DNA of 64,000 nt, from positions 1,612,001 to 1,676,000 of the forward strand of contig OX485804.1 of the NCBI GenBank assembly GCA_950295325.1, read 5' to 3'. This stretch comes from Polytrichum commune (taxonomy: Eukaryota; Streptophyta; Polytrichopsida; Polytrichales; Polytrichaceae). The translations under genes were made by a program, and so were the position numbers. Of the stretch, positions 8,434 through 58,668 are shown piece by piece. The notes under the pieces were generated by a model. It was not told where the DNA came from and searched no databases. It saw only the letters and a list, made by a program, of their open reading frames with translations. The stretch's first letter is position 1. Every line of letters begins with the position of its first letter.

Positions 8434-10960
8434 CTGAAACAGCTGCTCCCATATTTGCACAATGGTTTATCGGTGGTGGCCTTCTTGGATTTTGAACTTC
8501 TTGTGTTTGGAATGTGACTAGGACCGCTCCCATCCTCACCCTCATCCTCATCCTCATCCTCATCCGTCCACTCGCCTTCTTCCTCATCTCCAACCTGCTC
8601 AATAGTCCAGACTTCAGCTTTCTGTGATCCTACTCAGAGGATCAGTGCACAAATTGGAAACAAAAGACCTATTGTGACAGGATTCCTATTTTTTCTCTCA
8701 CTAAGAAGTATTGAAGCTGATAAAGAAGAGTCTGTCATCTGTCATATGTCATCTCAAGAAAGTTTAATCTGTGGTAAATCCAGTTTTATAAGATTGACCA
8801 ATTGCAATCGGGTGTAGGAGAATATAGTGACTACCTCTGCATCCTCTTCTTCAGCATCCTTAACAAGGAAACCATCAAGGTCTTCTCCGTCGTCGTCGTC
8901 ATCGTCATCGTCACCCTCCTCCTCCTCCTCCTCCTCCTCATCCTCATCCTTCTTGGCTTTTGATCTCTGTTTGGAGGTTTTTTGAGCAGGTCCTCTTGCC
9001 TTTGCATCTTGGACTCGATCATGCTTGGCTTCAGAAGAATCCTTCTTCCTTGGATCATCTTGGTTCACAGCTTCATCTTTTAGAGCATGAGTGACATGTT
9101 TCTCTCTCACACTCTGAAGTAGAGCAGAATCTGGATCACCGAGAGGATGTGGAGAGTTATCTGGTGTTCCTGGCTTTGGTAGTGCAGACCTCTTCCCACC
9201 TATTAGAACATCCTTCTCCTCTTCATTCTCTCCTTCCCAATCATCATCATCATCATCTTCAGCATTCGCATTTTTGTTTACACCCCCGATTTTAATGTTC
9301 GCTTTTGCCCCTATTTAATTGCAACAATTTCTTGGGTCACCACATCATATTGAGCTTCCATCATGCATCCAAAATCAAAACAAAGACATCATGCCTAGAT
9401 GTGTTTAACCTCCTTCAGGAAGAAAGTAAGACCTGAATTATTTTTGCTTCGCTTCCCAGCCGGCTCATCATCTACATCTTCATCTTCACCATCATCGTCA
9501 TCGTCATCGTCATCGTCTCGCCGATGTGTTCCAATCCGCCAGTCCCACTCACTGCAATCACGTGCTCTTTGCCCATACTGCTCAAACTCCAAGCCCTCCA
9601 CCAAGAATCCAAATGCTGGTCACATTGTTGAAACATTGACTTGAGAGCCAGACTCATACAATTACTCAAAATAAACAACCCCATAATCTTTCACATCTAC
9701 GTGCAGAATACGAAGGTTGCACGAAAATCGATGGAAGTCGTGCTGTGCAAATCTCATCAGATTTAGGTTTGAGATTTGTATGCTCACTTTTCACAGGATG
9801 GATGTCACTTGCAATTGTGCCTGGCATTTCCGTGACCTCTAGCTTGGGCTCCTGTGCTGATGAAGCTTGCCGAATACCTTCTCCTTCTCCTTCCCCATGA
9901 ATGTGACCCTTGCCTTGTATCTTCGCACTTGAACCTTCTTCCCGCAACCTGCGTCTCTCAAGCTCCAACCGCTCTCTTTTCCGCTGCTGCCACCTCGCCA
10001 CCGTTTCAGCTATGCCCGCTTCCTCATCTATCACAATCTCTCCTGATTTTTGGCTTCTTGTTTGGGACAAAACTTCTTCATCTCCTTGACCAGCTGTTGT
10101 AAAACTCTGGCAGACAATCAATACCCAGCCCACGTGATTTCGCCACAGCCATGACCTAATCCACAATTCCTTGAGCGCCCAAAACTCAAACCCCAGGGTC
10201 GGGAGAAGCCAAAACAAAATTTATACCTTTGCAGCACAATCCCAGAGCTTGTAGAACACCAGCTCTTGAATGACATGGAAAATTAGTCTCGTGGTTCTAA
10301 ACACTCAATATCCAGCCCACATGATTTCACCACAGCCATGATTCCTTGAGCACCCAAATGCATGAATCCGAAACTCAAACCCCGGAGTAGAGCGAAGCCA
10401 GTTTTATTTTTGTTTTCTTACCTGTGAAGCACAATCTCGGAGCTCGTAGAACACCAGCTCTTGAATGGACATGGAAAATGGTCTCCTGGTTCTAAACACT
10501 CAATACCCCGCCCACATGATTTCGCCACAGCCATGACCTAATCCACGATTCATTCAACACCAAATGCATGTCCCCCAAACTCAAACCCGAGGTGTAGAGA
10601 GAAGTTAAATTGTTTCCTTACCTTCGAAGCACAATCCCGGAGTTTGTAGAACATCGGCTCTTGAATGGACATGGAAAATTGGTCTCCGGGTTCTAAACAC
10701 TTCGATTCCCCTTTCTTCAGAACCAGAACCTTATTCTCCTTCCCGTCACCGGTGGGGTGAATTACACAAATTGGGTTCGGCCCAATGACCTCCACTAAAA
10801 CTTCGTAACTATATTTCACACCCTGTTGTAACGTAAGACGAACTTGTCGATGCGATACTGTTCGATCTCGGGGTGCGAACCCCGGGCCTCTTCCCAGCTC
10901 TCTCTGTGCGCCCTCCGCAGGAAGACCCACGATGCTCCCATCCTCTGCTTCAAGTTCCAT
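8434..10960 (-). CDS. FHA-domain protein with C-terminal PBZ zinc finger (APLF-like), 3' end not resolved
   Basis: Five exons join in frame with GT-AG borders: 10960-10622, 10106-9701, 9615-9433, 9310-8835 and 8621-8434, about 530 codons so far. Exon 1 begins MELEAEDGS and encodes an FHA-like fold with LGRGPGFAPRDRTVSHRQ. The usual S-R-x-H phosphothreonine-binding signature reads S-H-R-Q, so binding may be altered. Exon 3 carries FGFLVEGLEFEQYGQ and SEWDWRI, which fits plant FHA relatives, followed by an Asp-rich tract. Exon 4 has long acidic Glu/Asp and Lys-rich stretches. Exon 5 ends KPLCKYGSSCFR, the first half of a PBZ (poly-ADP-ribose-binding) finger, with the His half expected in the next exon. 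Family knowledge suggests a nuclear role in DNA-damage or PAR signalling. Intron 1 holds tandem copies of the exon 1 end. Confidence 0.8.
10120..10705 (-). repeat. tandem triplication of the exon 1/intron 1 boundary of the FHA gene
   Basis: Three direct copies of about 195-200 bp lie at about 10120-10310, 10311-10500 and 10501-10705. Each holds the 3' end of exon 1 (rightmost copy: codons for CLEPGDQFSMSIQEPMFYKL) and a 5' splice site. The boundaries align at 10622, 10422 and 10227. All three keep a GT donor (GTAAGG, GTAAGA and GTATAA on the minus strand). The two inner copies are decayed as coding sequence: one has a 1-base deletion in the GACCAATTTTCC stretch and the other a stop in the same place. 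Confidence 0.85.
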
Positions 10961-12196
10961 TTTCTCGCAAAAGCTTGAAAATAAATGCCAGTTTTAAAAA
11001 TCTCACACCTCCTTCTATGCACACATGCGGGTTTGCAATTTTAACAAATAACGTCCTCTCGGTCGATTTATTTTTCTGCAATTTTTGGTACTTTTCTATG
11101 CGCCTCCGAGCTCCGTCCTGCACATCCGATTGCTTTCAATTGACTGACTTAAAGATCCCCGCACTCGTGGAGATGCTTAGAAGCAGCAAACTCCGAATTG
11201 CGCGGATTGTTTTTAATAGCAACTTATTGTCGGTGTTGAGTTCACAGTTAAAATGCTGCAATTTCACATCGAAGGACATCGATGACTTGTAATCTTTGTG
11301 TAGGCTACAGGGGCAGTTCATGTGTCACTAGTTCGTTGAGCAGAAATAAATAAAGGATCTTGAGAGAATGTTGGCTTTGACTCTGCGGGCATGATTTGCT
11401 TGCACTCACATAGCTTTGCAGCATGAGGTCGTAAAGCGAAGTCAACAGACCAGTGCCCATGATTCAACTGAAAGGTTTTGAAGGAATTTGGAATGAAAGA
11501 GTGTACAGGGTTGCCTTCGAAAGCACATATCTATGCAACATTGTCACTAAATGGGAAGAAATTGAAGTCTTGTTTGAGCGCTGTGCAGCCCCACTGCTGT
11601 CATGGTTGCTCACTCACCCAAATGGCCGCCCCAGTTTGCTTTACAGTAATGACTCACTAATGACAAATTTAAGTTAAATCTTTTCCAAGTTTACATTTGT
11701 TGATAAGAGGAAGACTTCTTTTGATTCGTGATAACTAGATGTTTCAGTTCACCAGAAATTTTGTCAAGACCAGTTTCATTCTGCCATTGTGTGTATTTCA
11801 CCAGGGTCATGCATGAGTTACTTATCTCTCTGGTTGCCTGTTGTCCGTTTTATGTGCATTCCTTCCCACTAAAATTTGATGTTGTTGTACACCCAATCTG
11901 GTGTTACAACTTAGAATCACAAGTCTCGTTTCTGTGATAGGTGAACACAACACAATTAATTATTATGTTGAGTTTTGGAGTAGATTAAGTGTGATACAAG
12001 CATCCATTTGAATTCTTCAAACTTTGCACTTGTGAATAGACAATAAAGTCACCGTAAATTTGTTCACAGAAAAATTAGATTCTGTCTAGTACAACTAGAA
12101 AATCTAATGAGAAGTGCTGGTGACCTCAGCTCCTTCATGTTTTGCGCAAACACTACAGGAACATGTGACAACTATGTCTTGAACTTCTATGAATGT
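10961..12196. other. intergenic: FHA promoter side and Mini-RNase III 3' side
   Basis: This separates two minus-strand genes. It should hold the FHA 5' UTR and promoter and the 3' UTR of the Mini-RNase III gene. Frames of up to 139 codons (10873-11292, plus) overlap FHA exon 1 in antisense and look non-coding. Confidence 0.5.
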
Positions 12197-14729
12197 CTAC
12201 AAGGGAGGGTTCCCATTGACAGTGGTTTGCAACCCAAACCCAGCAAGTAAACAGCTGCTGTCCACACTAAAGCCTATTTTTGCCATGAGCTCCTCTAGCC
12301 GACTTTGATTCGTCAAATAGAGATACCCAATCTGCATATGGAGCCACATGACTTGCTTGTTAGGATCAACATTTTCAAAGATGAGAAGGATAAGTATTAG
12401 CATCTGGAAAAAACCATAGTAAATAGGGAAGCTGTAGTGGAGAGCACCATAAATTAAAACCAAACTTTGGAAACTTACTAAAGTTTCTAAGGCTGATGCA
12501 CTGCTATATGTTGCTGCTCCGGCACGCCTACTCGCACGCCTTTGACCAGTTTCTATATTCTTCCCCCATCTCACAACATCTCTGTAAAGACTCCCATGAT
12601 CACAAGATTAGCCACATGTTAAGGAAGACTAAAAGTTTCAACTCCACTATAGGACATCCTTCTACGACTGGAGTCCATATTAGTTGCCTCCTTGTTTCAG
12701 ATAATCAAGGTACAAAACTTCCAGAACAATAATACATGAATAGAACATGTTACTTACTGAACAGGTTTTGAGATTTTAAGCTCAAAAACATTGTGTCTTT
12801 AAGCCATATTACATTAGTCAGTCTATGAAAACGACTTGCCATTTCATGTCCACTGCTATTTGAATGAAGATAATAAGCTAAGCAAGTATGCCAATGAAGT
12901 TGACACTCCATGGATGCAAGAACTGACCTTTCTTCTTCTGTTAGAAAAGTGTCCTTCAGTAAGCCCTTGAGCATTGCATCCTGCCATTTTAACAATATAA
13001 AATCACAGTGAATGGGTGAACAATGCTACATGGTCCTGTCAACTTGTTTCCACAGGTCATGTACAATGAAAGACAACATCAACTTGAACTCGAGCACATC
13101 TACTTCAAGACAAGACTCTCAAACAACCTACTGTCAATCACATTCATTGGGAAAATGCATGTTCCCAACCTGCGCTTCACAGCAAACCACAGCCATAACT
13201 CGCTTGTTGTAGCTATCAATAGTTTGAGGTGGCATCAAGAAGTGGCGCCGCACATATACCTGTCCCAAAATCCATGATGTCACATTCAAGAGAATGTTTC
13301 ACATATCACCACAATTTCGAGGCCATGTACAAGATACCTAAAATTCATGAACTAGAGATTAAGAAAAAAAAGTTTTAAATTAAAAAAATAAACACAAGAG
13401 GATGAGGTAGTGAACCTCGTATATAGCATCACCCAAATATGCTAGGGACGCTGCATTATAGTTTGCTCTCGGCTTATCCACGGGAGGAGGCGAGGGCAGC
13501 CACACTTGTGCATTGTCCTGCACTGCTACTGACAAACCCAGATTAGCCTTCATAGGATAATGCTTCCTCTTAGAGCTCCAACACTCACTCCCAATTCATG
13601 TCTCTAGCTCTCAAAGTCACGTTATGTATGTGATTTACACATCCTGCAATGCAAATCCAGCCCTATCTCCCAGTTCACACCCTGGTTCCAATATTACCTT
13701 CTACACATGAAGTACTCGACCCTAAAACTCAATTTCTGCGTCTGGTTCTCAAATCATCTCGTTACAAAAACTGAACCCAACACTCACTCCCAATTCATGT
13801 CTCTGAATCTCAAACTCAGCTTATGTAAGTGAATTACACATGTAAGACTGAATATCCTTGCAATGCATATGAATTACTCCCCGAATTAAAAAACCCACCA
13901 ATGAAAACCCAAACTTCTGCCTCTGGTTCTCAAATTTCACACTCTACATTACAAAAACTGAACCCAACACTCACTACCAATTCATGTCTCTGAATCTCAA
14001 ACTCACCTCGTGTAAGTGAATTACATATCTAAGACCATAAACGCCTGCAATGCATGTGAATGTCTCATTGAAAACAAAACTCCAAAAATAGAAATCCAAA
14101 CTTTCTGCCTCTGGTTCTCAATTACACCTTCTACATAACCAAACTTCATACCCCTGGTTCCAAGATTAACCTTCTGCACATGAACTACTCAACCCTAGAA
14201 TATCAATTTCTGCTTCTGATTCTTAAAATCAACTTCTACACTACGAAAATTGAGCCTCCAACCCTTGCTTCCAATTCATGTCTCTGAATCTTAAGTTCTC
14301 GAACTCGCCTTAGGTAAGTGAATTACGCATCTAAGACCAAGAAACCTTGCAATGCATATGAATTACTCACCGAAAACATTCAAACAAACAAACAAAATTC
14401 CCAAATAGAAATTCAAACTTCTGCCTCGAGTTCTAAATTACGGCATTTACATAACAAGAATTTCTGCCACGGACAGAGAATAAATACACACCTGCAGAGG
14501 GCATTGTCAGGCCGGGCTCGCGATCCAAGAGCCTGCGCAGGTTAACTCCCAGCCGCTGTCTGCTTGGTTTGGTGGCCGGAGATTGGCCTTGGTGTTGTGG
14601 CGGATACGAAGTGGAAGGAGCGTCGCCTGGCGTGGCGGTCCATGGCCACGAGCTCATCCACCGATGCTGCAATTGCATCGCTATCGCCATCGCTGCCGAA
14701 ACGGAGATGTCTCGAAATCCCTCACACAA
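12197..14729 (-). CDS. Mini-ribonuclease III-like protein, organellar
   Basis: Six exons join with consistent phases: 14729-14492, 13528-13416, 13259-13170, 12980-12928, 12581-12479 and 12331-12197, giving about 243 aa. The exon 1 N-terminus is Arg/Ser-rich, lacks a conserved domain and looks like an organellar transit peptide; Met at 14729 or a downstream Met could be the start. The catalytic core reads NAASLAYLGDAIYE, VYVRRHFLMP, AQDAMLKGLL, LTEEERDVVRWGKN and ASALETLIGYLYL. This is the dsRNA-binding-domain-less Mini-III arrangement, with acidic Asp and Glu residues where RNase III coordinates metal. Plant relatives (RNC3/RNC4 type) act in chloroplast rRNA maturation and intron turnover. 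Intron 1 has tandem repeats. Intron 5 is 147 nt and open in frame. Confidence 0.88.
13575..14460. repeat. tandem repeats in intron 1 of the Mini-RNase III gene
   Basis: Four diverged copies are anchored by CCAATTCATGTCTCT, starting at about 13581, 13780, 13967 and 14261 (spacing 199, 187 and 294). Each continues with a GTAAGTGAATTAC-like block (GTATGTGATTTAC in copy 1), a TGCAATGCA block and CTTCTGCCTCTGGTTCTC. Unequal spacing reflects a roughly 100-bp module (CTGGTTCCAA.ATTA.CTTCT) present in only some copies. Confidence 0.85.
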
Positions 14730-15599
14730 CCCTAAATCTCATATCGCATCATCCTTGAAGGCTCTTCCGAACTTATTCAAAATTAAATTGTCCGGGCTGG
14801 AAGAGAAAAATCCTTGATCAAAAAGTGGGCCTTTCCGAAAATTATTTCTTATATGAGTGTTATTTTAGAAGATTTTTCTTAAAACAATTTTTTTTTTTTG
14901 TGAAGTAATTTTATTTTTTTTGTTCTTTTGCATTGTACAATATGGTGTTTTCCATTGACAGAATGAACATACACCTCACAAGGCAACTCAATGACCCAAG
15001 CCAGGCTTGAGAGACTTGGCAGCTTGGAGAAGATCCAAGAGATTGTGAAGTATCTTGTGTGCAAACTACATGAACGTCATTGGAGAATTCAAATGAGGAA
15101 CCCTCAACAAACCCTAATCTCATTTTACAGTCTTAAAGCTTATCCAGTTTACACATGCTCCAGTGTCAAAATTTTAGGACTTTAAGAAAATATGGGGCAT
15201 ATTTTGTGAACGACAAGTCTCAGTTGAAAAAGTGATTCTAATGATGTATTTTGTGTAGGATAAGTTATGGAAACAAATTTTATGGACACTTTGAGCAGTT
15301 CAACATATGCCATGTCAGAAGAAATGAAATTATGTGAGCACATTAGCAAATCCAAATGAGGAACATGATTTTTGTAATTGTTGTGTTGTAAAATCCAAGG
15401 GAGTGTTTTATGAAATCTTCAAATGAAATTCATAGATGGTATTTTTGATCGGCACTTGTAGGTCAAAAAATGCTTTAATTGGTGCATGAAAATCTAGCAG
15501 CCCATGTATATGACCCTCCGTATTCTAGTAAACCACCAAAATGTGGTTGGTTGGTGGCTTGTGCTTCCCTACATGAGAACACCTCTAACCCATTATTAT
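14730..15599. other. upstream region of the Mini-RNase III gene
   Basis: This contains its promoter by position. No distinct element is convincing. A poly-T run lies at about 14889. Confidence 0.4.
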
Positions 15600-15643
15600 C
15601 TAGAATCTAAAGGGCGAGCGGCCTCCATGGAAACTCACCCTAA
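15600..15643. repeat. fragment of a MITE terminus (same family as 54658-55085)
   Basis: The stretch with GGGCGAGCGGCC, CCATGGAAACTCACCCTAA and a neighbouring CTAGAATCT matches, in inverse orientation, the terminal repeat at 54658-54700. The other end of this copy was not found nearby. Confidence 0.6.
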
Positions 15644-15831
15644 TATGGTCCAATGAGCACATGATATTCACATCCCGACCTGCTTACATTTCAAGAAAAA
15701 TGCAACCGGATTCTAGGGCCCACAAACTTGTAGTAAGTAGACCATGGCGTCTAAATAATACTTTTCTCATGTGCCTACCCACAAACCTTGTCATTGAATT
15801 CACTATCGTCATTGGATCTAGAACAATGTCC

Positions 15832-16195
15832 GGAGATGGGGAGATTTTTAGCATAATTGTTTGAGATCCTAGTGTTTCCAAGTCCAGACATTTACATGTT
15901 GATATCTTTCAATTTTTCTTTACTAAATTGGGATAAAGTCTAAGATGACCCTAAACTACTGGATGATAGTGGAGAGGAACCCAAAACCGAATGGAGTGGT
16001 TGGTGGTTCCATTCCCAACCGTGAAATCTTCTCTATCCTAGATGGAAGAATTAGCCAAGTGACCACATGCCTCATGTGTTCCATAAAATAAATAAAAAAT
16101 GATCAATAATTATCCCAAAGTCTTGAACTTCAACTGGTTGTTTCGCATGCTCAACCAGTTCATCTACAACTAGCAGTCGGTTCTCCCCATTCATT
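15832..16195. mobile_element. dispersed repeat C, copy 1 (TIR-like ends)
   Basis: It begins GATGGGGAGATTTTTAGCAT and ends GTCGGTTCTCCCCATTCAT, so the ends are imperfect inverted repeats built on GGGGAGA/TCTCCCC. Internal blocks such as GAGATCCTAGTGTTT, TTTACTAAATTGGG and CTTGAACTTCAAC.GGTT recur in order in the 28681-28900 copy. Confidence 0.65.
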
Positions 16196-16292
16196 GCATT
16201 AGATCCAAAAATGCTTTCGACTTCCCGAACTTCAAAAGCACTTTCATTATTTCATTTCATGTCAATGCTAACTCATTGTTGAGTGAGCACAA

Positions 16293-16413
16293 CTGGAAAT
16301 GTGGTAATTTCGCAACGCGACGATTCGACACGAAGTGACCAGAATGACATAAACTCAACTCAGGCTTTTGCCGATCTGGTCACTTAGTGTCGTGAAACTA
16401 CCACATTTCTAGT
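16293..16413. repeat. imperfect inverted repeat, about 120 bp
   Basis: CTGGAAATGTGGTAATTTC... is answered by ...GAAACTACCACATTTCTAG, and GACACGAAGTGACCAGA by TCTGGTCACTTAGTGTC. The arms are about 45 nt with a loop of about 30 nt. A MITE remnant or a hairpin-forming transcript are both possible. Confidence 0.75.
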
Positions 16414-18422: not shown

Positions 18423-18427
18423 CTCAA

Positions 18428-19603
18428 CCTAGCAAGGTGTTTTTTCCTTTTCTTTATTGGCTATTTTTTGGTGGTTTGTCTTGATTTTGACATTCTGTGT
18501 AGTTGAGATGAATACTAATGCTTTCTCTTGAATACATACCTCATACATACATATCCATAAGAATTCATTATATGTCTCTATCTACATGAGGTGTATCCAT
18601 GTTAAACAATTGATTCATTTTATTTTTCTTAAAAAATTCTCGTTATGTATTTGAAGAGCCTTGTACTAGAATGTTGAGCCCACTTCATGCTTGTCATTGG
18701 TTGAAATTTCTATGAATGTATCCTCCCTTACAAGTGAAGTTGTACTTTAATTGGGAAATAAACTTTGTGCAATTAGTAAAAAATACTAAGATGTTGATTT
18801 TTTCCAAGTTTAAGCATGTCATGCAACTTCCATAATTTCTAGTTAACTAAACCAACATTTGAGTGATTTCATGGTGTGTTGGAGTAATGATTGAGTCTTT
18901 GAATGTAGCCTAAACTTTGTCCTTTGGGAATGTATTAAATGTGGTAAGTGTACACCCTAATGTGTTACCCTAAATGATGAGCGTATTTTATTGGAGATAA
19001 ATGGCATACATTAATTTACCTATAATTGTTTTGAATGATACACACTTCAATGAACAGTGGCCAATGAATAACTTACACCTTGAACATTGAAGAGGTGAAG
19101 GGAATGCAACCCTTGGCAACCAAAAGACAACATTGTCATCTCTTTCAATCTTCGCTAATTTATCCCTTGACATGTGTTCTTTGTCTCGCTCTAACATTAA
19201 ACCATGGTGAGACCTTCATGCGGTAGATTGAATACAACATCATATGTTTCATAAATTTGCACAAATACTATAGCATATCTGGAATCATTTGATTACAAAA
19301 GTAAAACCCAAGCCATCAATGTTGAGCTCCCCCCAAAAAAGAAACAACATCGAGTGAAATTCATTTGTTTCATGTAGTCTTTCATGTAAGCTCAAGGTCA
19401 CTTGATAATGACTTGATTTTGTCTTTGGACATACTTCAAAGAGATCAGCATCCAACATCTCCCCTGATGCATCATGATCGACTAGTTTTATAAGTTCCAA
19501 ACCTCGAAGCACATTGATGAACGGGGCATAAACGGGATAATTGAAGAGAATTCCAACATCGTCATTGAGAGGATTTCAACTTGTGTCTTGAAAGCTTCGA
19601 ATA
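18428..19603. other. no recognised gene
   Basis: AT-rich sequence. The minus-strand frame at 19285-19512 (75 codons) has no identifiable domain. The right end is the upstream region of the 19604 gene. Confidence 0.4.
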
Positions 19604-20701
19604 ATGTGGAATAGCAGAGCCATGAATGAAGAGGCAGGGGGTAAGGCGTGGATTCATGATATTTCCTTCTACAAGGATTTGAATACACCGAGACATGTGG
19701 TTCGTCGGCCTCCACCTGCGGATCGCATCGTGCACGAACGATGCTTGCCCACGCCATGGATTCCGACGTATCCTTTTGATCCATACAGGCGGCCGAATGC
19801 ACCCGACACCACGGGGAGGAGATCACCCGTCCCTACACAATGTCAGATGCCAAAGAACGAATGCGGCACGTCCTCTACATGTCTGGATGTTGAGTTTGAA
19901 GCATTTGAAACACCCGAAACCTCAAATAATAATGTTGTGATCATAGATCCCACCAAGACGGAAGATGGTAAACCTTGCGGTGACCGCTGCAGCGATGACC
20001 CTTGCTCTCCATGCGACAGTTGTGTCCCGTGCACAACCGACGAGTGTGTGAAGGATGACTCCTGCCAACTCCCGCCGATCGGAACAGGCGACCGAATACA
20101 CTTCGACGACGTGAAGAACACGGAGTGCAACCGGATGGATCGATACAAGATTGTCCCCTCTTGGTGGTACGCCGAACGAGACGACAGTTGCGACGACACG
20201 CCGTTGAACGCGATCATCAAAAAGCCCGATCACGCGCACTTGGACCCGAACCGGGAGATCGGGGTGAACTGTTACGCGGCCGCGGGGCTGGTCACGCGGC
20301 CCACTCTCGAGCTTCCCAAGCCGGTTCGGACGTTCCAAGGGTGCCCGCCGGGGACCGCGCCGCCCCTTGGGCGCACGGGGCGCGAGAGCAAGATCGTTGA
20401 GTTTCTTGCGTCCCACGTCGCGAGGTTCGACGACGAGACGTTCCCGCGCTACCTCATGCGGTGCGCGATGGTGGCGAAGAACGAACTCAAGAAATACCGC
20501 CGACTCAATGTGGGCTACGAGTGTTGCGAGCCCGTCGACAAGTTCGTCACCCGACTCTACATTGGGTCGAGGTTGGGACAAGCGGCGCACGGCGTCAATT
20601 GGTCGATGAAGGATGCGTGCGATGTGCAACGGTATCTGAAGGAGGAATGCAGGAAATTGGCGAGCCAAGGTGCTATCGATCTCAAGGTTCTAAGTTTTTA
20701 G
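19604..20701 (+). CDS. intronless cysteine-rich protein of unknown function (365 aa)
   Basis: This is one uninterrupted frame from ATG at 19604 (alternative ATG at 19622) to TAG. GC content and third-position GC rise strongly from about 19,950 onward, most clearly at 20,200-20,650, unlike the AT-rich flanks. Residues 20-65 are basic and Pro/aromatic-rich (PWIPTYPFDPY). Residues 80-175 hold twelve Cys, including closely spaced ones at 125, 129, 134, 137, 140, 143 and 148, with many Asp. The last 100 residues look helical and basic (FPRYLMRCAMVAKNELKKYR; MKDACDVQRYLKEECRKLAS). No signal peptide or membrane segment is apparent. I do not recognise a family. A retrocopy, a horizontally acquired gene and a lineage-specific gene (for example one lost from seed plants) all remain possible. 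Strong codon bias and length argue that it is or recently was coding. Confidence 0.65.
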   Translation: MWNSRAMNEEAGGKAWIHDISFYKDLNTPRHVVRRPPPADRIVHERCLPTPWIPTYPFDPYRRPNAPDTTGRRSPVPTQCQMPKNECGTSSTCLDVEFEAFETPETSNNNVVIIDPTKTEDGKPCGDRCSDDPCSPCDSCVPCTTDECVKDDSCQLPPIGTGDRIHFDDVKNTECNRMDRYKIVPSWWYAERDDSCDDTPLNAIIKKPDHAHLDPNREIGVNCYAAAGLVTRPTLELPKPVRTFQGCPPGTAPPLGRTGRESKIVEFLASHVARFDDETFPRYLMRCAMVAKNELKKYRRLNVGYECCEPVDKFVTRLYIGSRLGQAAHGVNWSMKDACDVQRYLKEECRKLASQGAIDLKVLSF

Positions 20702-40130: not shown

Positions 40131-40249
40131 AGTTCATCACCCATCAAGTGTTCATTGGGAATTTGGTATTGAGCCCCTGAAATTGGAATGCTGCTGAGAA
40201 AATTATTAGATCGGAGGAGCCATTCCCGGGATGACTTTGAAATCCACAT

Positions 40250-40930
40250 CTCCATTGTGATTTGGTGAAGGGTTAGGCGCACTCTTGAATGTTAGGGATG
40301 ACGGGTTTATTAGAATTTCCAATGAGGAAATAGAATGGAATGCTGCTCAAGATGGAGAGCTTTCGGAGTGCAGCGGGATTACATTGAGATCTTAATGCTC
40401 AAATCGTTGGTTTGCGTGGGTTCAAAGAGCACTGCCAAATTTAGTGGATGTTTAGGGTTTATGGGTTTTGTGAGAATTTCAATGAAGAAGTGACGGAGCT
40501 CAAGGTTCGGGGTTAAGGATGTCTTGGAATTTCCAATGAGGACATGAATTGTATCAATGCTGCTCAAGAAGTAAAGCTGCTGAGCATAGCAGAAGCACCC
40601 TGAGATGTTCGAGGCTCAAACTGCCGGTTTGTGTGAGTTGAAGGAGCACTGCCAGATTTACTGAAGGCCAGGATTCTTGGGTTCTGTGAATGAGCTCAAG
40701 GCTTGGGATTAAGGGTTTTTTAGAATTTTCAATGAGGAAATGGAATGGAATGCTGCTCAAGAAGGAAAAGTTCTGAGCATTTCGGAGTGGAGCAGGATCA
40801 CATCGAGATCTTAACGCTGAAACTGTCAGTTTATGTGAGTTGAAGGTGCTGTGCCAAATTTACTGAAGGGTTAGGGTTCAACTTAGGGTTTTGTGAGAAT
40901 CTCAATGAGGAAGTGAAGGAGGAGCGTGGG
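40250..40930 (+). promoter_or_regulatory. tandem-repeat promoter/5' UTR of the DEAH helicase gene
   Basis: Three direct copies of about 200-210 bp are followed by a partial fourth that runs to the coding start. Anchors are CAATGAGGAMATGRA..AATGCTGCTCAAG near 40319, 40531 and 40728, with CTCAATGAGGAAGTGAAGG at about 40903. Each unit also contains GAGCACTGCCA(G/A)ATTTA-like and GTTTGYGTGRGTT blocks. Regulatory meaning is inferred from position. Confidence 0.75.
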
Positions 40931-40944
40931 GGAGATTGGTGACG

Positions 40945-43900
40945 ATGAGGGGTTCAGCTGGATCGATGACACGGTGGAAGCCAGGCACCCCGAAGCCCGC
41001 TGCGCAACCAGCAGCAGTCGAGAATTTGGACGAGGAACTGAATTTCTCAGTCCATTCGAGTGTGCAGAAACAGAGGCAGCAGTTGCCAGTGTACAAGCAC
41101 AAAGAGTCACTCCTGTACCTGGTGGAGACCCATGGCACCACCATCGTGGTGGGCGAGACTGGGAGCGGGAAGACCACTCAGATTCCTCAGCTTCTGGCCG
41201 AGGCTGGATGGGCGGAAGGCGGTCGCACAGTGGCTTGTACGCAACCTCGCCAGATTGCTGCGCAGACTGTAGCTGCAAGAGTGGCCGAGGAGATGCGGGT
41301 CACCCTTGGCACCCAGGTTGGATACTCCATCAGGTTTGAAGAAGTTGCAACTCGTGGCGTCACCAAAATCAAGTACCTCACTGATGGTGTGTTGCTGAGG
41401 GAGATGATGGCGGATCCCTTGCTGTCTTCTTACAGCGTTATCATGGTGGATGAAGCTCATGAAAGGAGCATAGCCACGGACATTCTTCTGGGCCTTCTTA
41501 AAAAGGTGTGCATCCCCATGGCAGATGATTCCAATTTAGGGTTTAGTAGTCAACGTCCATCGCCATTGATAGTATCTTGTACAGTGTGATGGAGCTGTGG
41601 TAAAATTCGAGCATATACATCTGGGCCTTTTAAAAAAGGTGTGCGTCTGCATTGCAGATGATTTCAATTTAGGGTTTAGCAGTCATCTTCCATCGCCATT
41701 GGTAGTAGCTTGTACAGTGTGATGGAGCTATGAATGGAAGCGAACCTAAACATCTGGGCCTTCTTAAAAAGGTGTGCGTCCACATTGCAGATTATTTCAA
41801 CTTAGGGTTTAGTAGTCATCTTCCATCGCCATGGATAGCTGCTTGTACAATGTGATGGAGCTGTGAATGAAATGGAAGATATACATCTGGAACTAATTTG
41901 TTCAGATGAGAGGGGAGAAAGTGTGTGTTGCATCAGATGGTGGAAGGAGGACCACTTGATGGCCCCATTTCCTTTCCGTGTAGAATTCATTATAGCAGGA
42001 TATCCAGACCATGCAGGAGCAAGAAGTTGGGGGTAGGATGAACGTTGAGATGGACACACTTTTTTCCTTCAAAATTAGAGAAATGCTGATAAGGCTGACA
42101 GAGGTTGTTGGAGCAAGTTGACATTAGAATTTGTGTGGATTATTATGTCTTGTTGTTTTAAACATGGTTGGGTGGAAGACAACTACACCCATTTATTTAA
42201 TTGTCATCCTAGATTCTCCTTCCCCCAATGTGAGGGCTCCTAGTGATTTTGACTTGTGTTGAATGCAATAAAGAATTTGTGGAGGCATGACCTGCATCCT
42301 ATGTATATCTGTATGTATTTGCTATGTTACTAGGTCGTTTTCATCCGCTTTGATGGGTTCCTGGTGGATGCAGATCCAGAAGCGGCGACCTGATTTGCGC
42401 CTTATTGTGGCCTCAGCAACAATGGACACCAAAAATTTTTGTGACTTCTTTGATGCAAGTGGAGAGAAAATACAGTCATCAAAGCCGAAAGAGTCGGTGC
42501 CTGATCAAACGCCTGCTTTACTGTTAGTTGAGGTAATTTTCATTGCCTTCTGAACGCTCCATATTTTAAGACCCAAAGCCTCTGGTTCTAAGTCTTAAGA
42601 TGCAACATAGTGCTTCATTTTCTTTGTGGTGTTGCTGGTTGAAAATTATGTTGGGGGCAGAATTTTTAAGTAAAAATGTCTTCATTTGTATCAGTGTGCA
42701 TTCCATTATAGTCAACAGTATAACCAGTGATATTTGACCAGATTTTCTTTTTGGAGTTGTGATTGTGGGGAAGATCTCCACGTTATTATTGATTTGGCGG
42801 GGTGTATAATTGTTTGCATCTGTGGTGGTGGCAGGGAAGGACACACCCAGTCCTTGTACATTACATGGATGAGCCTGTGCAAGACTATCTCCGTGCTGCA
42901 GTCTCAACCGTGATCACTATCCACAAGAAAGAAGGGCCGGGAGACATTTTAGTGTTTCTCACTGGCCAAGATGACGTTAATGCAGCTGTACAGTTGATTA
43001 GTGAAGAAGCTGAGAAACTGCCTGGAGCTTTGGTAGCACTTCCTCTTTATGCTGGGCTGCCCCCCACTGACCAGGTACTTCTGAAAGTCCCAAATGTGTG
43101 CGGTTATTTCAGAGCAACCCCTAGTTGAGGTTGCGCAGAAGTTTAAATTACAAGTTTGTTGCCTTTGAATTGCCACAAAGTCATGTTGATATTCCCTCCT
43201 TGGTTGTCAGAAAATTAAGTAATTGGTTAGTTAGGTGTTTTATTTGCTAAAGGGTGGCTGTCTCTTAAAAGACTCAAATAACTCTCATCTGTTGGGGGTT
43301 GCAATTCAGAGTACATTCTGATGGGTGATCCTTGCGTGTACAGGAGCTTGTCTTGCGACCCTCATCAGGAAGAAGGAAGGTGATTATTGCCACCAACATT
43401 GCTGAGACCTCAGTGACTTTACCAGGGATTGTGTATGTAATTGACAGTGGGTTTTCCAAACAAAAGTTCTACAATCCTGTGACAGATGTGGAGGCATTGG
43501 TGGTAGCTCCCATATCACAAGCCTCAGCAGAACAAAGGGCTGGCCGAGCAGGCCGTGAACGCCCAGGGAAATGCTATCGTCTGTATACGGAGGATACATA
43601 TGCAACAATGATGCCAGAGGGTGTACCCGACATTCAAAAATCAAATCTCTTGTCTACAATTCTTCAGCTCAAAGCTCTAGGAATAGATAATGTCATGCAA
43701 TTTGATTGGATAGCGCCACCACCGGCAGAATTTATGGTAAGGGCTTTGGAAGTCCTGTATGCCCTTGGTGTTATGGATACACATGCCAAGCTCACTTCAC
43801 CTTTAGGCTATCAAGTTGCAGAGCTTCCACTTGATCCCATGTCAGCCAAAGTGTTGCTCACAGCCTCAGAGAGTGGGTGCCGGCAAGAGGGTCTCACAAT

Positions 43901-50270: not shown

Positions 50271-53242
50271 GTGTTGAGCCGCATTATTAAGAATGTTAGT
50301 GTATTACATGTATTGGTTTGGATTTTTATACTAAAATTGAGCAATGGACTGAAAGTATTCTAAATGATCCATGATAATAGGCCCCCTTCACTATTGCTTC
50401 ATTCAAAGTGTTTGCAAAATATGGCATTCAAGTAGTGCCGATTTTTAAATATGAACCTTAAACCCATGCACATTTATTAAATATGGATTCATTGCTCATT
50501 GGTTACTACTCACTCCTCACTACTCACTGCTTGTTGCTCATGAGATAGCTTCCCTCATGTATTAGAACCCATTTGGAAGTTGGGTGTAAATTTTGGGGCC
50601 TATTGTTTGCACCTCTCAAACTTTGAGAGAATTTTAGGATCTAAAATAGGACATGCACATGGAATTCATTGTCTTAAATCCCGGATTGGCCTATGCAAGC
50701 CTATCTTGGCTCACCCATCCTAATAGGACAAGCTAAAAAGCTAATTTTTAACAGCCTGACACCACTCTTTGTGTATGCTAATTTAACCATGGTTTCATCT
50801 ACCATACCTTGTGAATAACTCTAATAGGCACCATGTTCTTTTCCCCATCAACTTAACTTAGGCACAAAAACCTCAAGAATACTGGAACCCTCCCTCCCTC
50901 CCTCCGGAATTGACAACCACTCCCCCAATGGGATCTCCAAATTTTTGGGCAGAAACCTTAAATAAGTTATATGGGCAGCCAGCTGCTCGGCTCCCCTGCT
51001 AGTTGACCACTGCCCTACACGGAATCTCCAAAATTTTGGGCCCCCAAACCCGATTGGGCGGTCATGGGTGCTCCGGCCCATATTGGGGGCCGGGCAGCAT
51101 GCCAAAATTAGGTGTCAAAGGATGATGGGAACCGGGCAGGATAATTTTAGGCTACAAGACCATGGTGGGCCATGGCTGGGCCGTGGTGGGCTTATCCCCT
51201 TTTGTTTTTAGCCCAAATGTGGACCCCACTGTCTTAAGATTTTTGGGTCTCTTGCCAAGTGGATGACAGCATGTCATTTGGCAATAATAGTTTTAATTAT
51301 TGTTTTTTATTTGAATGGTATGGATACTACAGGCTGAGATCAATACACAGTATTTTTAGTCCTACTATGTAATTCCATTTTAGTTTGAGCCTGTTTACCA
51401 GGCTTAAGTTGTTGCGTATTGCATAAGTAGAGATTTGTTTCGAAGAAAGCATGGTAAGCTTTTGCACATTGCTACTAAATAAGGTTTTGTTGAACCCCTA
51501 AAGGTCAAGGCGGACGATATTGTTGGGTAGTTACCTTTGCCTAACAATTCAATGTATACATTTACACTATAATCTTCTAATATTGGACATGAGAATGGTT
51601 GAAAATTTATGTGAACAATCCCACTTTAGAAATCTTCCATTTATACGGTCGTATCTACCATGAGAAGAGTTGATTGTCATTAATAAGCTTATGAATTGAA
51701 CTAAATTGTTTTAGGCAATTTTGGGAAGATTTTACTTCAGCCTTTAGGCATGGGGTTAAACCCTTCCCAATGTTCTAGATCCGTTTGTGGAATCAAATGA
51801 ATGCCCATTGTATTAATTAGAAACACAAGTACCACCAAGAGACCAAGAGTTCAAAAGAAGGCATGTTCAAAGGCATGCTATAGGCTAACCTAGCAAGAGA
51901 CCGAAAATATTGAACTCAGGATCAAGTAAACAAGAGGACAACACTGGCACTACTAGGATCATTGTGGGGCCTAAAACACACTTCCCATTTGACACGGGTG
52001 GTCATCAAGACATGACCCCATTTACATGTCAAGTCCAATCTACAATTGTTTCTCATATTGGGTTTGAAGCATGTTTGGTTTGGGACATAACTACGTTGCC
52101 CAATGGTTAATTCTAGATTATTTTTGTAACATGCAATGATCACAGGTAAGCAAGCTTGCTCCACCCTCAAGCCTTGGTGAAGACAGACGACCATGAAATT
52201 AGGTGGCTTTGGTAATATTTTTTCATTTACAATAGTTTTGTCTTGGATCCAATGACACTGGTGAAAGCCGGTGTCTAGGGTGACGAAGGCATGATCTTCT
52301 ATGAGCTCCAACCACACATTGGATGAGCTTTTATTTGTTTTTAAACTCCAATCACATGAAACCTTCATGATCCTATTATTGAAACTCAAAGAAACTTATA
52401 TTTGAAGGGAGGCGCCACCTTCGCTCCATGACAAAGGCACGAGGTGGGTTTTCCCTTCCAAAAAGGGCTCTGGAGCCTCTGTAAGAGCGAAAGGGTTAAG
52501 GATCAATATTGGAAATGGTATTCTCTGGAGCAAGTGCTACTTTTGATGACGTGGGTTTTCAACTTGGAACCCCTTCAAATGATAGGCAGCTAAGGACACA
52601 CCCCAAAGGATGTCTCCAGAAGAAGCTACATGGTTGAAGCACGAGGCCATGAGAGAAAGCCAACGTGAAGCCGAGACTCGGGTCGGTTAGCAGATAAACC
52701 ATAATTGGGAGTGATTTTGAAGCTGTCAATCTGGGGCCAGACTACTTAACATAACTACCTACTACAGTAGAACAAAACAATAACTACCCCCAAATTCACT
52801 CCTAGAAAACATACACGTGGTTAAAAAAGACAATCAGAACATTAAAGTTATCTGTAAAGTCCTTCAAAGAGGGATGGAACCGTGGATTTGATCCTTTTTT
52901 GAAAAAAAAAACCTTTCTATTATGAACTCATTAGCTCGTGGTGTATCGGAGTCTATTTTGAAATTTGGGTAATATTTTTGAAACCTCTTTTTTTCACCTC
53001 AATTTTTTTGAATGAATTTTATGATCTAAAGACAGTATACGCATGGGACCCACTATCCTAAAATCCAGTACTAGCTTATGCCATGCTAGCTTGGCCCACA
53101 CATCCTAGTAAAACAAGCTAAGAAACCGTTTTTTAATAACATGACACTACTCTTTGTGTACGGTAATTTAAACATTAAGAAAACTTGGTGACTTTGTGTT
53201 AATTGTCATAAACTCAAAGTTAATTGGGACTAAACCAGGGTT
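50271..53242. other. repeat-rich intergenic region with dispersed repeat D pair
   Basis: A segment at 50637-50792 is repeated in direct orientation at 53023-53178 (GATCTAAA start, then CACNNATCCTA.TA blocks, CACT.CTCTTTGTGTA and TAATTTAAACAT/TAATTTAACCAT). The pair flanks about 2.2 kb. The frame at 51922-52389 (minus, 155 codons) has no recognised motif. About 50880-51200 is GC-richer with two GGAATCTCCAAA..TTTTGGG-like blocks. Confidence 0.5.
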
Positions 53243-54222
53243 CGGGAGATTTTTGAGCTCAACTAGCTAAAATCCGTCCCTTCATAATTTCTACCGGTCT
53301 TTTTAGGATTTGATCGGTTGCAAACTTGTTGTCATTAATTTGAATTGGCCAATATCCTATATTTTCTTTTTAATTGCTGGTTAATTTCCTCTTCATTGTA
53401 ATGACAACTGGCCAAAAACTCGGGCATTGATAAGTAAGTTGGTTTTCCAATTATATCTACAAACAACATACACTATTCAACAACAATGTTCAAAGAACAT
53501 ATCAGCATCCAACAATAATATGTAATGATATCAACATCCAACAAGAATGATCAACAATTTATCCGTAGCAAGAGTTGAACCTAAAATAAGCCATCAACCG
53601 GTTGATGGCCATGGATAAACTCTTCTATCATACCTAGGTCTTAAAACCTCATATTAGATTTGAGGCCACAACATGATAAAAGAGTAACCTAACATACCAT
53701 ACTATATACAAACATGAAATTCACCAATTGTTAGAGTCAAAATCAACAATATCATCTTCACCTTCAAGAGGAAAACGCCCTGAAAGGTATCTTTGTGGAT
53801 GTAAAAACAACCATCTAAACTTTGTAGAGTTCCTTCATAAAGCTATAATGGTTTCCATTAGTACATTATCAAGATCACCACAAAGATCTTCCATAGACAC
53901 ACTCATAATACATTCTAAACACTAAGCGTCAACAATGGAATGCAATAACGAAGCAAAAGCATCGTTAAGTTTCTTGTGACCTACACGGCTGAGAACCTTC
54001 CTCATTCAATATCCGCCCATACCCTCTGGAGACCCAACTCATTTCCGCCATTTTCTGAGCCTGAGGGGTTAAATTTCCTACATTATCTCATATTGGTCGG
54101 TTGATTTCCTATACTCTTCATATTTAACTCGGTTATAAGGCCGAAATCTCCCCAAAAAAATCGGTAATTTTGCAATTTCACTCAGCTAACTTACAACTAG
54201 CTGCCGGATCTCCCCGATCATT
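53243..54222. mobile_element. dispersed repeat C, copy 3 (about 980 bp, longer form)
   Basis: It begins GTTCGGGAGATTTTTGAGCT and ends GCCGGATCTCCCCGATCATT. The right end matches copy 2 closely (CTAACT.CCGG.TCTCCCCGATCAT). The interior is mostly different, so it is either a longer relative or a copy carrying inserted DNA. Confidence 0.55.
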
Positions 54223-54279
54223 GGACTACTAAACCCATGGGTTCATCTGCTTTACTTTATGGACTATTTTTAAGGCACT

Positions 54280-54530
54280 TTTTACAAGGTGGACCTCGGC
54301 CCCAGAAGGCCCTGGTAGGTGGCCAAGTTTAACCCCATAACTTAACAAAAGCAGGGGCAGGGGCAATAATAACTTGTTATTGGGGGTCCAGGAGATTCTA
54401 GAAAAGAGGGCCAGGGCTGGGTGGAGCCAGAATGGCGGGTGAGCCCCGCCCCACCCGGGGAAACAGGGGGATCGAGCCGCCGCGGTTAGTGACGCGGCAA
54501 ACCGCTCGCAGCGGCCATTGACTTCCTTCA
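54280..54530. other. GC-rich island of unknown origin
   Basis: A block of about 250 bp is far richer in G+C than its surroundings. A 101-codon minus frame spans it but shows no domain. Possible sources include an organelle or repeat-derived insert. I cannot assign it. Confidence 0.4.
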
Positions 54531-54657
54531 ACAAAGCACCACCGGATTCTTAAGCTATTGCTGGAGATCTGCCTAGTTTATATACAGTTCTAATTGATTT
54601 ATCAAAACAAAACAAACTCTAGATTCCTTGGTCAGTAACACCATCTACCTGATGAGT

Positions 54658-55085
54658 AAGGGTGAGTTTCCATGAAGGCCGCTCGCCCACTAGATTCTAG
54701 ACAACAACGGGTCGAAGATGTTCGCATGTACTTAAGCACGAACCGTCAACCAACCGCATTCTCGCAGTCCACTAGAATGCACAGTAGATGGTCTTAGACA
54801 TGGGCTGCTAGACTATCGTGAGACCACTAAAGAATATTTAATCTACAAGTGCCCAATCACCGAAGGATTAAGACTCGTTGAAGACTCAAGATAACCAATG
54901 TTGGTCTAGAATTCCATCCCTGGTAACCGGGAGGAGGAGGAGGAGACCCGGATTTGAGAAGATGGGAGTAGCTGGTGGGCACATATGAACTCTACCCCAT
55001 TATATTTCCTCTACATTTGGGCAAGTTTGTCCTTATTCATACTAGAATATGGTGGGTGAGCAACCTACATGGAAACTCACCCTAA
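54658..55085. mobile_element. MITE-like element with about 43-bp inverted termini
   Basis: TAGGGTGAGTTTCCAT-type ends face each other: 54658-54700 (GGTGAGTTTCCATGAAGG, GCTCGCCCAC, AGATTCTAG) against 55042-55086 (CTAGAATATGGTGGGTGAGC, CATGGAAACTCACCCTAA). There is no coding capacity. A related terminus lies at 15600-15643. Target duplication is not clear. Confidence 0.75.
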
Positions 55086-55479
55086 GTCTAACAAATACAC
55101 AAAGTATGTGCAACGAAAAATGTCAGATTACATGTTGCGGTAGGATCTAGTTAGAAGCCTAAAATGTATGCATTCCTCTTGTTGCTAGTCGTTGACTATA
55201 GCAGTGGCTCATGCCCCGATCACACCAAAATTTTCGTCCGCTTCCAATTGTGTAGGGATTATGTTGAGACATAGATGCTAGCCCACCACTTTTCACACCA
55301 GAGATGCCCACGTATGGTGCCAAAATTGGCCGGTGTGAGCAACTCCTCAGTTGGCAAACCTACAAGTTCATTTGCATCATCAAAAGTGAAAAGAAAGTAC
55401 AGGGAAAGCAAACTTGAACTCTAGGTCTCTTGGAAAGCCTGACGGACATCTACTATACATACAGGAACAACAACAGAAA

Positions 55480-56328
55480 AAGAATTCTGTGCAAAGAAAG
55501 TGTCAGATTCTCGGTAGTTGGTAGTTACATCTGACATGGAGCCTTTACATATACATAAGTTAAGCTAATTAGTATAAGACTCCTGAGCATCTCTCGTTCA
55601 TTTGCCAGTTGTCATGGCGTCGTTTTGAGATGAGGTAATTTGCTAGCTGATTAACAAATAAAAACCATCAGAGCTCTAGATTCCTTGGAGTTACGTGACT
55701 ATACTATACTATAGTCACAATTTTCAGCAAAGAAAAAGGTCGGACTCAAGCTCGGTACATGGTTACTTGGTAATATCTGTCTCGAAGGCTCTGAACCGAC
55801 TGTCCTCTCACTATTGTAAGTGGTCGAGTTTCGGAGGGTGAAACTATCTGATAAACCTCCAAGTAGACTGTTCCTCGGATAGATCTCCTGGTAGCATCGG
55901 AGTCAGCGATGTATATATAATGGGACAATCGCAGCTTGTAGCTATTTTTGGGCCTCTGCGGAATTTGCGCCTGCTTTTCCAAGATTGTAGAAATCCTCCG
56001 CAGCTTGCCAAACAGTAATTTGAGCTACAGTAACAACAGACAGAAATCCAACAATTCCTGCACAGTAGAAAGAAAAACAAAAAGGTTCGTAGATTCTCGG
56101 TAGTTGGTTAGTAGCGTCTGGCTCACTCCGAGCTGCCTTTATAAGAGAACTGCACCTCAGTCCTCTTGTTGCCAGTAGCCGAGGGAGCCTGTTGCATGAC
56201 TAAACCCTCAGACTCCTTGGACATGCTTCCGGGCATACTCACTAGTTTGCAATGAGCAGGAGTAGATTATAGTGAGAGAGTTGGAGTAATCTAATTAGTA
56301 ATCTGGTGCTGTTTATTCCAGAGAAAAG
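55480..56328 (+). promoter_or_regulatory. AMT1 upstream region with repeated promoter-like modules
   Basis: A TATA-like TTTATAAG at 56138-56145 lies about 185 bp before the ATG. The module GATTCTCGGTAGTTGG occurs just before it (about 56094) and at about 55507, where it is followed by GCCTTTACATATA. A weaker version (CAAAGAAAAAGGTCGGAC) lies near 55730. CTCTAGATTCCTTGG also recurs upstream (54616 and 55672). Function is inferred from position. Confidence 0.5.
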
Positions 56329-58668
56329 ATGACGAACTTTGGGTGTGCTGCGGCAGATTTGCTAACGTTGCAAAATGCGTTTGGGGGAGGGAATGCAACG
56401 GCGTTGCAGGATTTTCTGTGCGGGAAGCTCGATGGAATCTCTGCGCAACTTGGATACACAAGCCTGGCGGTGGACAACACATACTTGCTGTTCTCGACCT
56501 ACTTGGTGTTTTCGATGCAGCTGGGATTCGCCATGCTGTGTGCAGGCTCCGTGCGAGCGAAGAACACCATGAACATCATGCTTACGAATGTGCTTGACGC
56601 AGCCTGTGGAGGAATTTCCTACTACATCTTTGGATTTGCGTTTGCTTTCGGCCAGGGGCCTAACCCCAACGGCTTCATCGGTCACTTCAACTGGGGGTTG
56701 AATGGCATCCCAAGCTCCAGCTACGACTACAGCTTCTTCCTGTTCCAGTGGGCTTTCGCCATAGCCGCAGCTGGAATCACATCAGGATCCATCGCAGAGC
56801 GAACACAATTTGTTGCCTATTTGGTGTACTCATCCGTCCTCACGGGATTCGTTTACCCCATTGTCTCACATTGGGTTTGGAGCACCGACGGGTGGTTGTC
56901 TGCGTCCAAAGTCACTGGCCCAGGAGGGCTATTGTTCGGCACCGGCGCCATCGACTTCGCAGGCTCAGGAGTGGTGCACATGGTGGGAGGAATTGCAGGT
57001 CTTTGGGGAGCTTTGATCGAGGGACCTCGCATTGGCCGATTCGACAAGAGTGGGAACTCGATGATCTTCAGGGGCCACTCTGCGACGTTGGTTGTGCTGG
57101 GAACCTTTTTGTTGTGGTTCGGATGGTATGGGTTTAACCCTGGGAGCTTTGTCAAGATTCTGGTGCCGTATGCTGATTTCCGTGGGAACTGGACCGGAGT
57201 GGGGAGGACTGCGGTGACCACTACGTTGGCTGGAAGCATGGCTGCCATCACCACCTTGTTTGCAAAGCGGTTGCTGGATGGCCACTGGAATGTATTGGAT
57301 GTGTGCAATGGGCTGTTGGGAGGGTTTGCAGCCATCACCGCCTCCTGCGCTGTCGTCTCCCCCTGGGCTAGCATCATCTGTGGGTTCGGCTCCGCTTGGG
57401 TGCTCATCGGCCTCAACAGACTTGCAGGTAAATTCCCATCCTTGGTTTTTCTCCTCCGTCTTGCTTTTTCTTGGCTGAATTGGATATGCCGTCTCTAGTG
57501 GGTTAGGCGCCTAACAGATGCGTAGAGGGATCACTTGGCATCGGCCATTGCTTTGTGAATTTGGGTTCAACACCGACTGAAAACCAATTTCAGATGGTTG
57601 TCGGAACAATGTCGGACCTTTGTGTTTCCTCCGGGAATTGGATATATGGCTGGTAGGTTAGGCTGACAGTATCGTATAAGTATCACTTGTCGGTCATTGG
57701 TTTCAAACCTTAGGTAATTCGGCACGACTGGATACCAATTTCAGTTGGTTGTCGGATCAATGCCGGACCTCAGTGTTTCCTCCGGGGATTGGATTTGTCG
57801 ACTCTGGTGGGTTAGGCTAACAGATTCGTATAGGTGTCACTTGTCGGTCACTGGTCTCAGACTTTAGGTAATGCGACAACAACTGAAAACCAATTTCAGA
57901 TGGTTGTCGGATCAATGTCGGACCTCTGTATTTCCTTCGAGATTCGGACTTTGTGTCTGGTGGGACGTTAGGCTAACAGATTCGTATAGAATCTCTTCTC
58001 AGTCATTGCTTTCAGAATTTTGTTGATTGAATCAACACCGAGCTGATTTTTACTGTCGCTTTGAATTATCTCTGTTTGGTCTTTCTGACAATTAACATTG
58101 GCAAGTTTCTGTCACAGTAATCTCCTCACATCAATAGTCTATTCACAGGTGCACCGGTGAGTCTAATCCAATGTGTAAGTGTGCGTCTGTGAGTTTCAAT
58201 GTCAATGCAATAGTGAGTCTGATGATTCTGTTGGTTGCTGCAGCTCGATTGAAATTCGACGACCCTCTGGAAGCAGCACAGCTCCACGGCGGGTGCGGAG
58301 CGTGGGGGCTTCTGTTCGTGGGCCTGTTCGCCGAGAAGGACTACGTCCAGCAAATCTACGGTGGGGGAGACAGGCCATACGGTCTGTTCATGGGCGGAGG
58401 AGGCAAGCTCCTGGCAGCCCAGATTGTGGAGATTCTCGTCATTGCAGGATGGGTGACGGTCACCATGGGCCCCCTCTTCTACGCTCTACACAAGTTGCGT
58501 CTCCTCCGTATCAGCCCCGAAGACGAGATCGCAGGCATGGACGTCACCCGCCACGGAGGGACAGCGTACATCCACGCAGACGGATCCGAGCACATGATGC
58601 ACTTGAGCTCCATCAATGGTCTCAAACGACCTCACGAGCATAACGGCCACGACCAGATGCCCATCTGA
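56329..58668 (+). CDS. AMT1: AMT1-type high-affinity ammonium transporter
   Basis: Two exons (56329-57427 and 58244-58668; phase-1 junction rebuilding Ala) give 507 aa, the usual AMT1 length. The protein starts [12 protein letters not shown] and has about eleven hydrophobic segments. The family signature [16 protein letters not shown] contains pore His217, and [14 protein letters not shown] contains the second pore His381. The C-terminal tail [18 protein letters not shown] keeps the Thr (about 467) whose phosphorylation shuts AMT1 trimers in other plants. Family knowledge: a plasma-membrane trimer importing NH4+. The single intron (57428-58243) holds tandem repeats. Many seed-plant AMT1 genes are intronless, so the intron is notable. 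A 165-codon frame beginning at 58171 reads through the intron end into exon 2 and is not the true start. Confidence 0.95.
57480..58030 (+). repeat. tandem repeat, about 155-bp unit, in the AMT1 intron
   Basis: About three and a half direct copies are anchored by GGTTAGGC(G/T) at about 57501, 57656, 57810 and (as CGTTAGGC) 57966. Each unit contains TCGGTCA-like, AACCAATTTCAGATGGTTG, TCGGACCT and TTTCCTCCGG blocks. Unlike the FHA and helicase cases, the unit does not include exon sequence. Confidence 0.9.

Follow-up and report, generated by a model that had tools for sequence, protein, structure and literature searches.

The window analyzed here is a 64,000 bp stretch of the genome of the moss Polytrichum commune (contig OX485804.1, positions 1,612,001 to 1,676,000), corresponding to G000:C2:1612001-1676000 in an assembly (G000) that spans 408 Mb, nearly all of it in seven contigs of 42-78 Mb. 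PsaB from the plastid contig has its best matches in PDB chains 8htu, 6l35 and 7ksq, which come from Physcomitrium, also a moss, and seven chromosomes fit Polytrichaceae. Self-comparison of the window reveals seven arrays of tandem direct copies with units of at least 130 bp, four of them associated with the first introns of protein-coding genes. Elsewhere in the genome such arrays are found in introns of any rank and in other non-coding DNA, and we consider here the process that is likely to have generated them. The window arrays were sought with Tandem Repeats Finder (TRF) and self-blastn, with TRF alone recovering five of the seven, and exon borders were read by eye from the sequence, without transcripts.

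The four genes with intron-1 arrays are named from Pfam and PDB matches, and include a DEAH helicase (DEAD and Helicase_C/HA2), an ammonium transporter, AMT1 (Ammonium_transp), a Mini-RNase III (Ribonuclease_3 together with Mini-ribonuclease 3 PDB chains), and an FHA-like gene for which the FHA_2 match is weak (E 0.007) and below the Pfam cut-off. Their first introns are 515-974 bp long, and each array contains 3-4 copies of a 133-199 bp unit, with approximately 71-85% identity between copies. These four arrays had been proposed in a sequence-only reading of this DNA and are evidently real; both TRF and self-blastn find them, and dinucleotide-preserving shuffles give none, whether of the loci (501 kb in total) or of the window (three shuffles). 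The proposal that the repeats are mutually unrelated is also borne out, with no match between any two window arrays at E<=1e-6.

Intron 1 of the FHA-like gene (10107-10621, minus strand) is a phase 0 intron with a GTAAGG donor at 10621 and an acceptor reading ..GCCAG that ends at 10107, and the frame is open over the junction. The array (10114-10711, minus strand; TRF, self-blastn and reading) has about 3.2 copies of a ~187-195 bp unit and reaches 90 bp into exon 1, which ends at 10622, such that the units hold up to ~90 bp of the exon-1 tail together with the 5' splice site. Three donor copies are present (GTAAGG, GTAAGA and GTATAA). Copies 2 and 3 have 1-nt indels in the exon tail, so that these later tails do not look coding. 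The acceptor lies, as judged by eye, within an apparent partial fourth copy. The DEAH gene has a similar arrangement, in that exon 1 (40945-41505, plus strand; Pfam DEAD) runs from the likely ATG to ..LLGLLKK and is followed by intron 1 at 41506-42373 as read from the sequence, and the array (41487-41890; 3.0 copies, unit 133 bp; TRF and self-blastn) begins 19 bp inside the exon. The donor AAAAAG/GTGTGC is thus present in triplicate.

The other two intron-1 arrays are entirely intronic. Intron 1 of the Mini-RNase III gene (13518-14491, minus strand, read from the sequence) contains an array at 13578-14455 with about four copies of a ~187-199 bp unit, which begins 36 bp past the donor. The sole intron found in AMT1 (57428-58243, plus strand), for which two AMT1 paralogues have an intron at the same position, contains an array at 57477-58020 with about 3.4 copies of a ~155-158 bp unit, starting 49 bp past the donor; both arrays are detected by TRF and self-blastn. 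The placement of the four arrays inside intron 1 therefore holds for AMT1 and Mini-RNase III but not for the FHA-like and DEAH genes, where the arrays start in exon 1 and the 5' splice site is part of the repeated sequence.

The remaining three window arrays lie outside first introns and are absent from the sequence-only reading. One of these (40288-40921, plus strand; three copies, unit ~214 bp; self-blastn) is 5' of the DEAH gene and stops ~24 bp short of its likely ATG at 40945. The other two are not associated with any recognized gene: one at 1203-2072 has about 3.2 copies of a ~275-285 bp unit (TRF and self-blastn), and one at 3644-4183 has two copies of ~277 bp that are 71% alike (blastn only, not TRF). 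Later introns in the window are free of arrays, as had been stated, though those read are short (156, 189 and 346 bp in Mini-RNase III, and ~300 bp for intron 2 of DEAH). The self-comparison likewise agrees with the earlier statement that there is no array between 15 and 35 kb.

To compare first with later introns we used 42 genes outside the window (7 AMT, 25 peroxidase-domain and 10 MIP genes), chosen from domain-search listings before any sequence was seen; AMT is the family of a window gene, and peroxidase and MIP genes have several introns and many copies. The short first exon of peroxidase genes was added by tblastn before the final count, which replaced an earlier count from raw domain matches (9/32 first versus 9/28 later introns) in which peroxidase introns were mislabelled because this exon was often missed. 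Exon splits in L017, L019, L020 and L030 and exon ends in L025 and L049 were set by hand, and the ambiguous locus L012 was excluded from first introns and 5' flanks, with its known intron counted as later. Twelve of ~37 peroxidase genes are outside the sample, several being near-copies (150 of 191 candidates were scored), as are four of the 14 MIP loci with two or more matches (two near-copies and two with weak matches). Arrays were counted at E<=1e-8, dropping those between 1e-5 and 1e-8, a threshold at which nine of 11 are kept in random DNA, represented by nine 10-kb stretches at fixed positions. The 3' flanks, at ~375 bp each, are too short for array counts.

Of 41 first introns 14 have an array, as do 13 of the 53 later introns (odds ratio 1.6, 95% interval 0.65-3.9, Fisher p 0.36), at densities of 0.386 and 0.299 per kb (p 0.57). 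The corresponding density is 0.197 in 5' flanks and 0.10 in random DNA (9 arrays in 90 kb), with no clear excess of the flanks over random DNA (p 0.10), and there are no arrays in 34 kb of exons of the sampled genes. At least one array is present in 25 of the 42 gene loci. The AMT2 second introns carry an array in four of five genes at E<=1e-5 and in three of five at E<=1e-8, and later peroxidase introns also hold arrays. First-intron specificity is therefore not supported. The sequence-only reading had tied the arrays to first introns or gene 5' ends, and the excess over other introns on which it had staked that proposal is not borne out in this three-family sample, with arrays also occurring in random DNA. 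Arrays become commoner as introns get longer, and when both ranks are pooled they are found in none of nine introns shorter than 300 bp but in 12 of 18 of at least 1300 bp. The first introns of the four window genes were thus probably hit for their length and not their rank, an argument that is partly circular in that the arrays themselves add length.

Most of the arrays are old. Among 55 arrays (39 from gene loci, nine from random stretches and seven from the window) the median divergence K between copies is 0.218, and K is below 0.1 in only two, or in four when each array is represented by its most similar pair. A simulation with a constant birth rate and the same detection predicts 16.3 of 55 at K<0.1 (binomial p 1e-6), on the assumption that bases are in random order, that a single indel rate applies and that arrays have 2 to 4 copies and are independent of one another; simulated detection is 45% at K 0.35-0.40 and 9% at 0.40-0.50. 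Young arrays are scarce and the start of the active period lies beyond the detection range, and the shortage of young copies suggests that duplication was formerly more active than it has been of late. Loss of copies over time would be expected to produce the reverse trend. Two arrays look young (L014 2404-2996, with copies 97% alike, and L032 3088-3334, 93% alike, both in gene orientation) and are candidates for the reading of duplication junctions, and nearly all other copies are too diverged for duplication junctions to be read. Two further ideas about the copies were rejected: hypermutation resembling repeat-induced point mutation as the source of divergence, for want of a transition excess, and a nucleosome-sized unit, in view of the wide spread of the periods (quartiles 158 and 272 bp), which show no sharp peak.

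We favor the interpretation, with a probability of roughly 0.72, that the arrays are decayed products of a genome-wide process that tandemly duplicates ~100-300 bp of local DNA, in introns of any rank and around genes. A local duplication would start at a staggered break or a slipping replication fork, and the array would then grow by unequal exchange. Such duplications would be tolerated in non-coding DNA, even over an exon-intron border, presumably because the first, original donor remains available for splicing, and the copies would subsequently decay neutrally. Break repair or fork slippage is probably the underlying mechanism. The sequence-only reading had also proposed recurrent local duplication and not a single transposon family, and this component is upheld, as the units of six arrays contain the local exon tail. 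A more elaborate scenario is that non-coding DNA near genes was for a time subject to intense local tandem duplication in an ancestor, perhaps with a bias towards 5' splice sites, and that this enlarged a large share of the introns before it largely stopped. The arrays would then be the relic of a temporary change in break repair or replication that was coupled to transcription and splicing; this is conceivable, but we regard it as doubtful.

Several observations weigh against a process that acts without regard to intron rank or gene structure. First introns have 26.6% of their bases within arrays and later introns 13.2% (raw fractions), and the point estimate for first introns leans towards the sequence-only reading, with the data being compatible with odds up to about four times higher. 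Introns contain 28 arrays in 83 kb and random DNA nine in 90 kb, a 3.4-fold difference in density (p 6e-4), although the random DNA is not corrected for transposons. The ratio of transitions to transversions between copies (1471:1422 in the 55 arrays) is lower than between the introns of the DEAH gene and its pseudogenes (113:68, from three related copies), and divergence may therefore not be by ordinary point mutation alone; misalignment near indels is one candidate cause. The sample is also limited to three gene families, and all of the comparisons are within one genome.

The positions of arrays relative to splice sites raise a further difficulty of the same kind. Among 32 intron arrays (28 from the sample and four from the window), 12 start within 50 bp of the donor where 5.5 are expected under the null (p 0.003), taking domain-match ends as donors and the window offsets by hand. 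With exact donors where these were read the count is 11 of 32, with p ranging from 0.0006 to 0.08 according to the allowed overhang, and without the four window arrays it is eight of 28 (p 0.008 to 0.14). Proximity to the acceptor is seen for eight of 32 (p 0.03 to 0.32), and 19 of 32 arrays are nearer to the donor than the acceptor, a weak contrast. Two of the 32 reach at least 5 bp into the exon beyond the acceptor. Because the p value shifts with the null and with inclusion of the window arrays, and because the contrast with acceptors is weak, the clustering of array starts at donors is only suggestive. If it is real, a blind process would need selection to account for it. An asymmetry of this sort could come from selection, because duplicating the donor does not stop the first one from being used, whereas with a duplicated acceptor splicing may take place at a premature site.

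A process confined to first introns or to the 5' ends of genes, either through duplication linked to transcription or replication or through selection for intron-1 length, fits the presence of arrays in all four window first introns, the odds ratio of 1.6 and the greater share of first-intron bases within arrays, as well as the 900-1300 bp introns, where arrays are present in six of ten first introns but none of nine later ones. However, the overall difference is non-significant both by intron and by kb, the 300-600 bp class is reversed (0/6 first versus 5/16 later), such that the difference is not consistent across length classes, and AMT2 genes have arrays in their second introns, with others lying in later introns of peroxidase genes and in random DNA. 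We therefore consider a first-intron process to be unlikely.

It is improbable that the arrays are functional and kept by selection, as repeated intronic enhancers or as decoy donors that regulate splicing or expression. Introns are richer in arrays than random DNA, and all of the donor copies read (in FHA, DEAH, L018, L031, L050 and L053) retain their GT, but GT retention is not improbable by chance because K is only ~0.2. Moreover, block-wise identity inside the units of 46 arrays is close to the shuffled level (mean z 0.74, with z>2 in six), which favors neutral decay, and the other 40 lack a conserved core (z of 2 or less). The FHA exon-tail copies are frameshifted and paralogues differ in whether they have an array, which also argues against a selected role.

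The same six arrays, in which the exon tail and donor are copied, are the basis for considering that tandem genomic duplication created the introns, and the FHA acceptor within its apparent fourth copy is consistent with this. Intron gain of this kind is described for a potato RdRp gene (PMC4974935), where, as here, duplication over an exon-intron border provides extra splice sites. However, 26 of the 32 intron arrays lack the exon tail and donor, and many arrays lie outside introns. The AMT1 intron, the only one for which this is checkable, is common to three paralogues; in L005 it carries no array, and the arrays of the other two have only short segments in common. Unlike the potato case, the AMT1 intron is present without an array, suggesting that duplication enlarges an intron rather than makes it, and an origin of the introns themselves by duplication has little probability.

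The units are for the most part unrelated to one another, and only five pairs among the 55 arrays match at E<=1e-6. Two of these pairs fall within a single locus, and the other three link, respectively, AMT1 paralogues, a pair of peroxidase genes and a pair of random stretches. In G000 the FHA array matches only itself, a lower bound because common words are skipped, and the DEAH array has seven further matches at 88-92% identity. Three of these were fetched (L001-L003, at C5:48.6 and 48.9 Mb and C6:17.9 Mb), and all are truncated DEAH gene copies with the same intron and two units each. The units in these pieces are ~83-86% alike and the pieces ~87-91% alike to the window gene, and as the units are less alike than the pieces, the array looks older than the gene copies. 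The copies lie head-to-tail beside their source, and in the genome searches with the DEAH and FHA arrays their units are not shared with unrelated loci, and neither unit recurs at many unrelated loci as a dispersed transposon or satellite would. A transposon or satellite family, for which the further DEAH matches might have spoken, is thus contradicted for FHA and DEAH by the identity of the three fetched matches as gene copies and by the self-match of FHA, and with so few cross-matches overall is very improbable in general. A 0.5 Mb stretch of C5 holds six of the seven further DEAH matches; a fragment of the gene has been dispersed at the DNA level, with intron sequence kept in the three copies fetched.

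The favored process of local duplication has parallels in other systems. Patch-mediated double-strand break repair is the origin given for short tandem duplications at natural insertions in rice (Vaughn and Bennetzen 2014, cited in PMC7407515), and as described there these duplications are likewise local and tandem, 10-1000 bp from near the break, and in a plant. The rice events are natural insertions, whereas the moss arrays are mostly old (K ~0.2) and often have three or more copies, with no variant between individuals observed. Another reported route to small tandem duplications is the fill-in synthesis that CST and Pol alpha-primase carry out at staggered breaks (PMC8355091). It would copy the stretch lying between a pair of offset nicks, as the moss units require; that account concerns 43-bp overhangs in mouse cells, whereas the moss units are ~100-300 bp. 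In the genomes of 31 plants and algae, tandem repeats have been described as denser near gene ends and intron-exon junctions (PMC3887541), but as the units in that survey were limited to 1-50 bp it could not see arrays such as these. Our searches of the open-licence literature listed no paper reporting arrays of this kind in mosses.

The window also has features apart from the arrays. A direct repeat of ~307 bp (62426-62728 and 63261-63566; 88% alike, 835 bp apart) is the most similar pair among window self-matches of at least 60 bp and is possibly a small LTR-type element; a Pfam search with one frame gave nothing. An imperfect palindrome at 60248-60543 (66% over ~300 bp) is perhaps a MITE-like element. 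At 19592-20701 on the plus strand, within what the sequence-only reading took as a transposon block, is a 369-aa open frame that is Cys/Pro-rich by eye and has no Pfam match.

What stands is a widespread and mostly old process of local duplication that sometimes copies 5' splice sites. If the sampled genes are typical, 13% of later-intron and 27% of first-intron sequence would be decayed local duplication, and a good part of the length of introns in this lineage would reflect a mutational process invisible to short-unit surveys. The shortage of young copies makes a change in the duplication rate a question that can be addressed by counting, and a preference of the duplications for donors, so far only suggestive, is a second.

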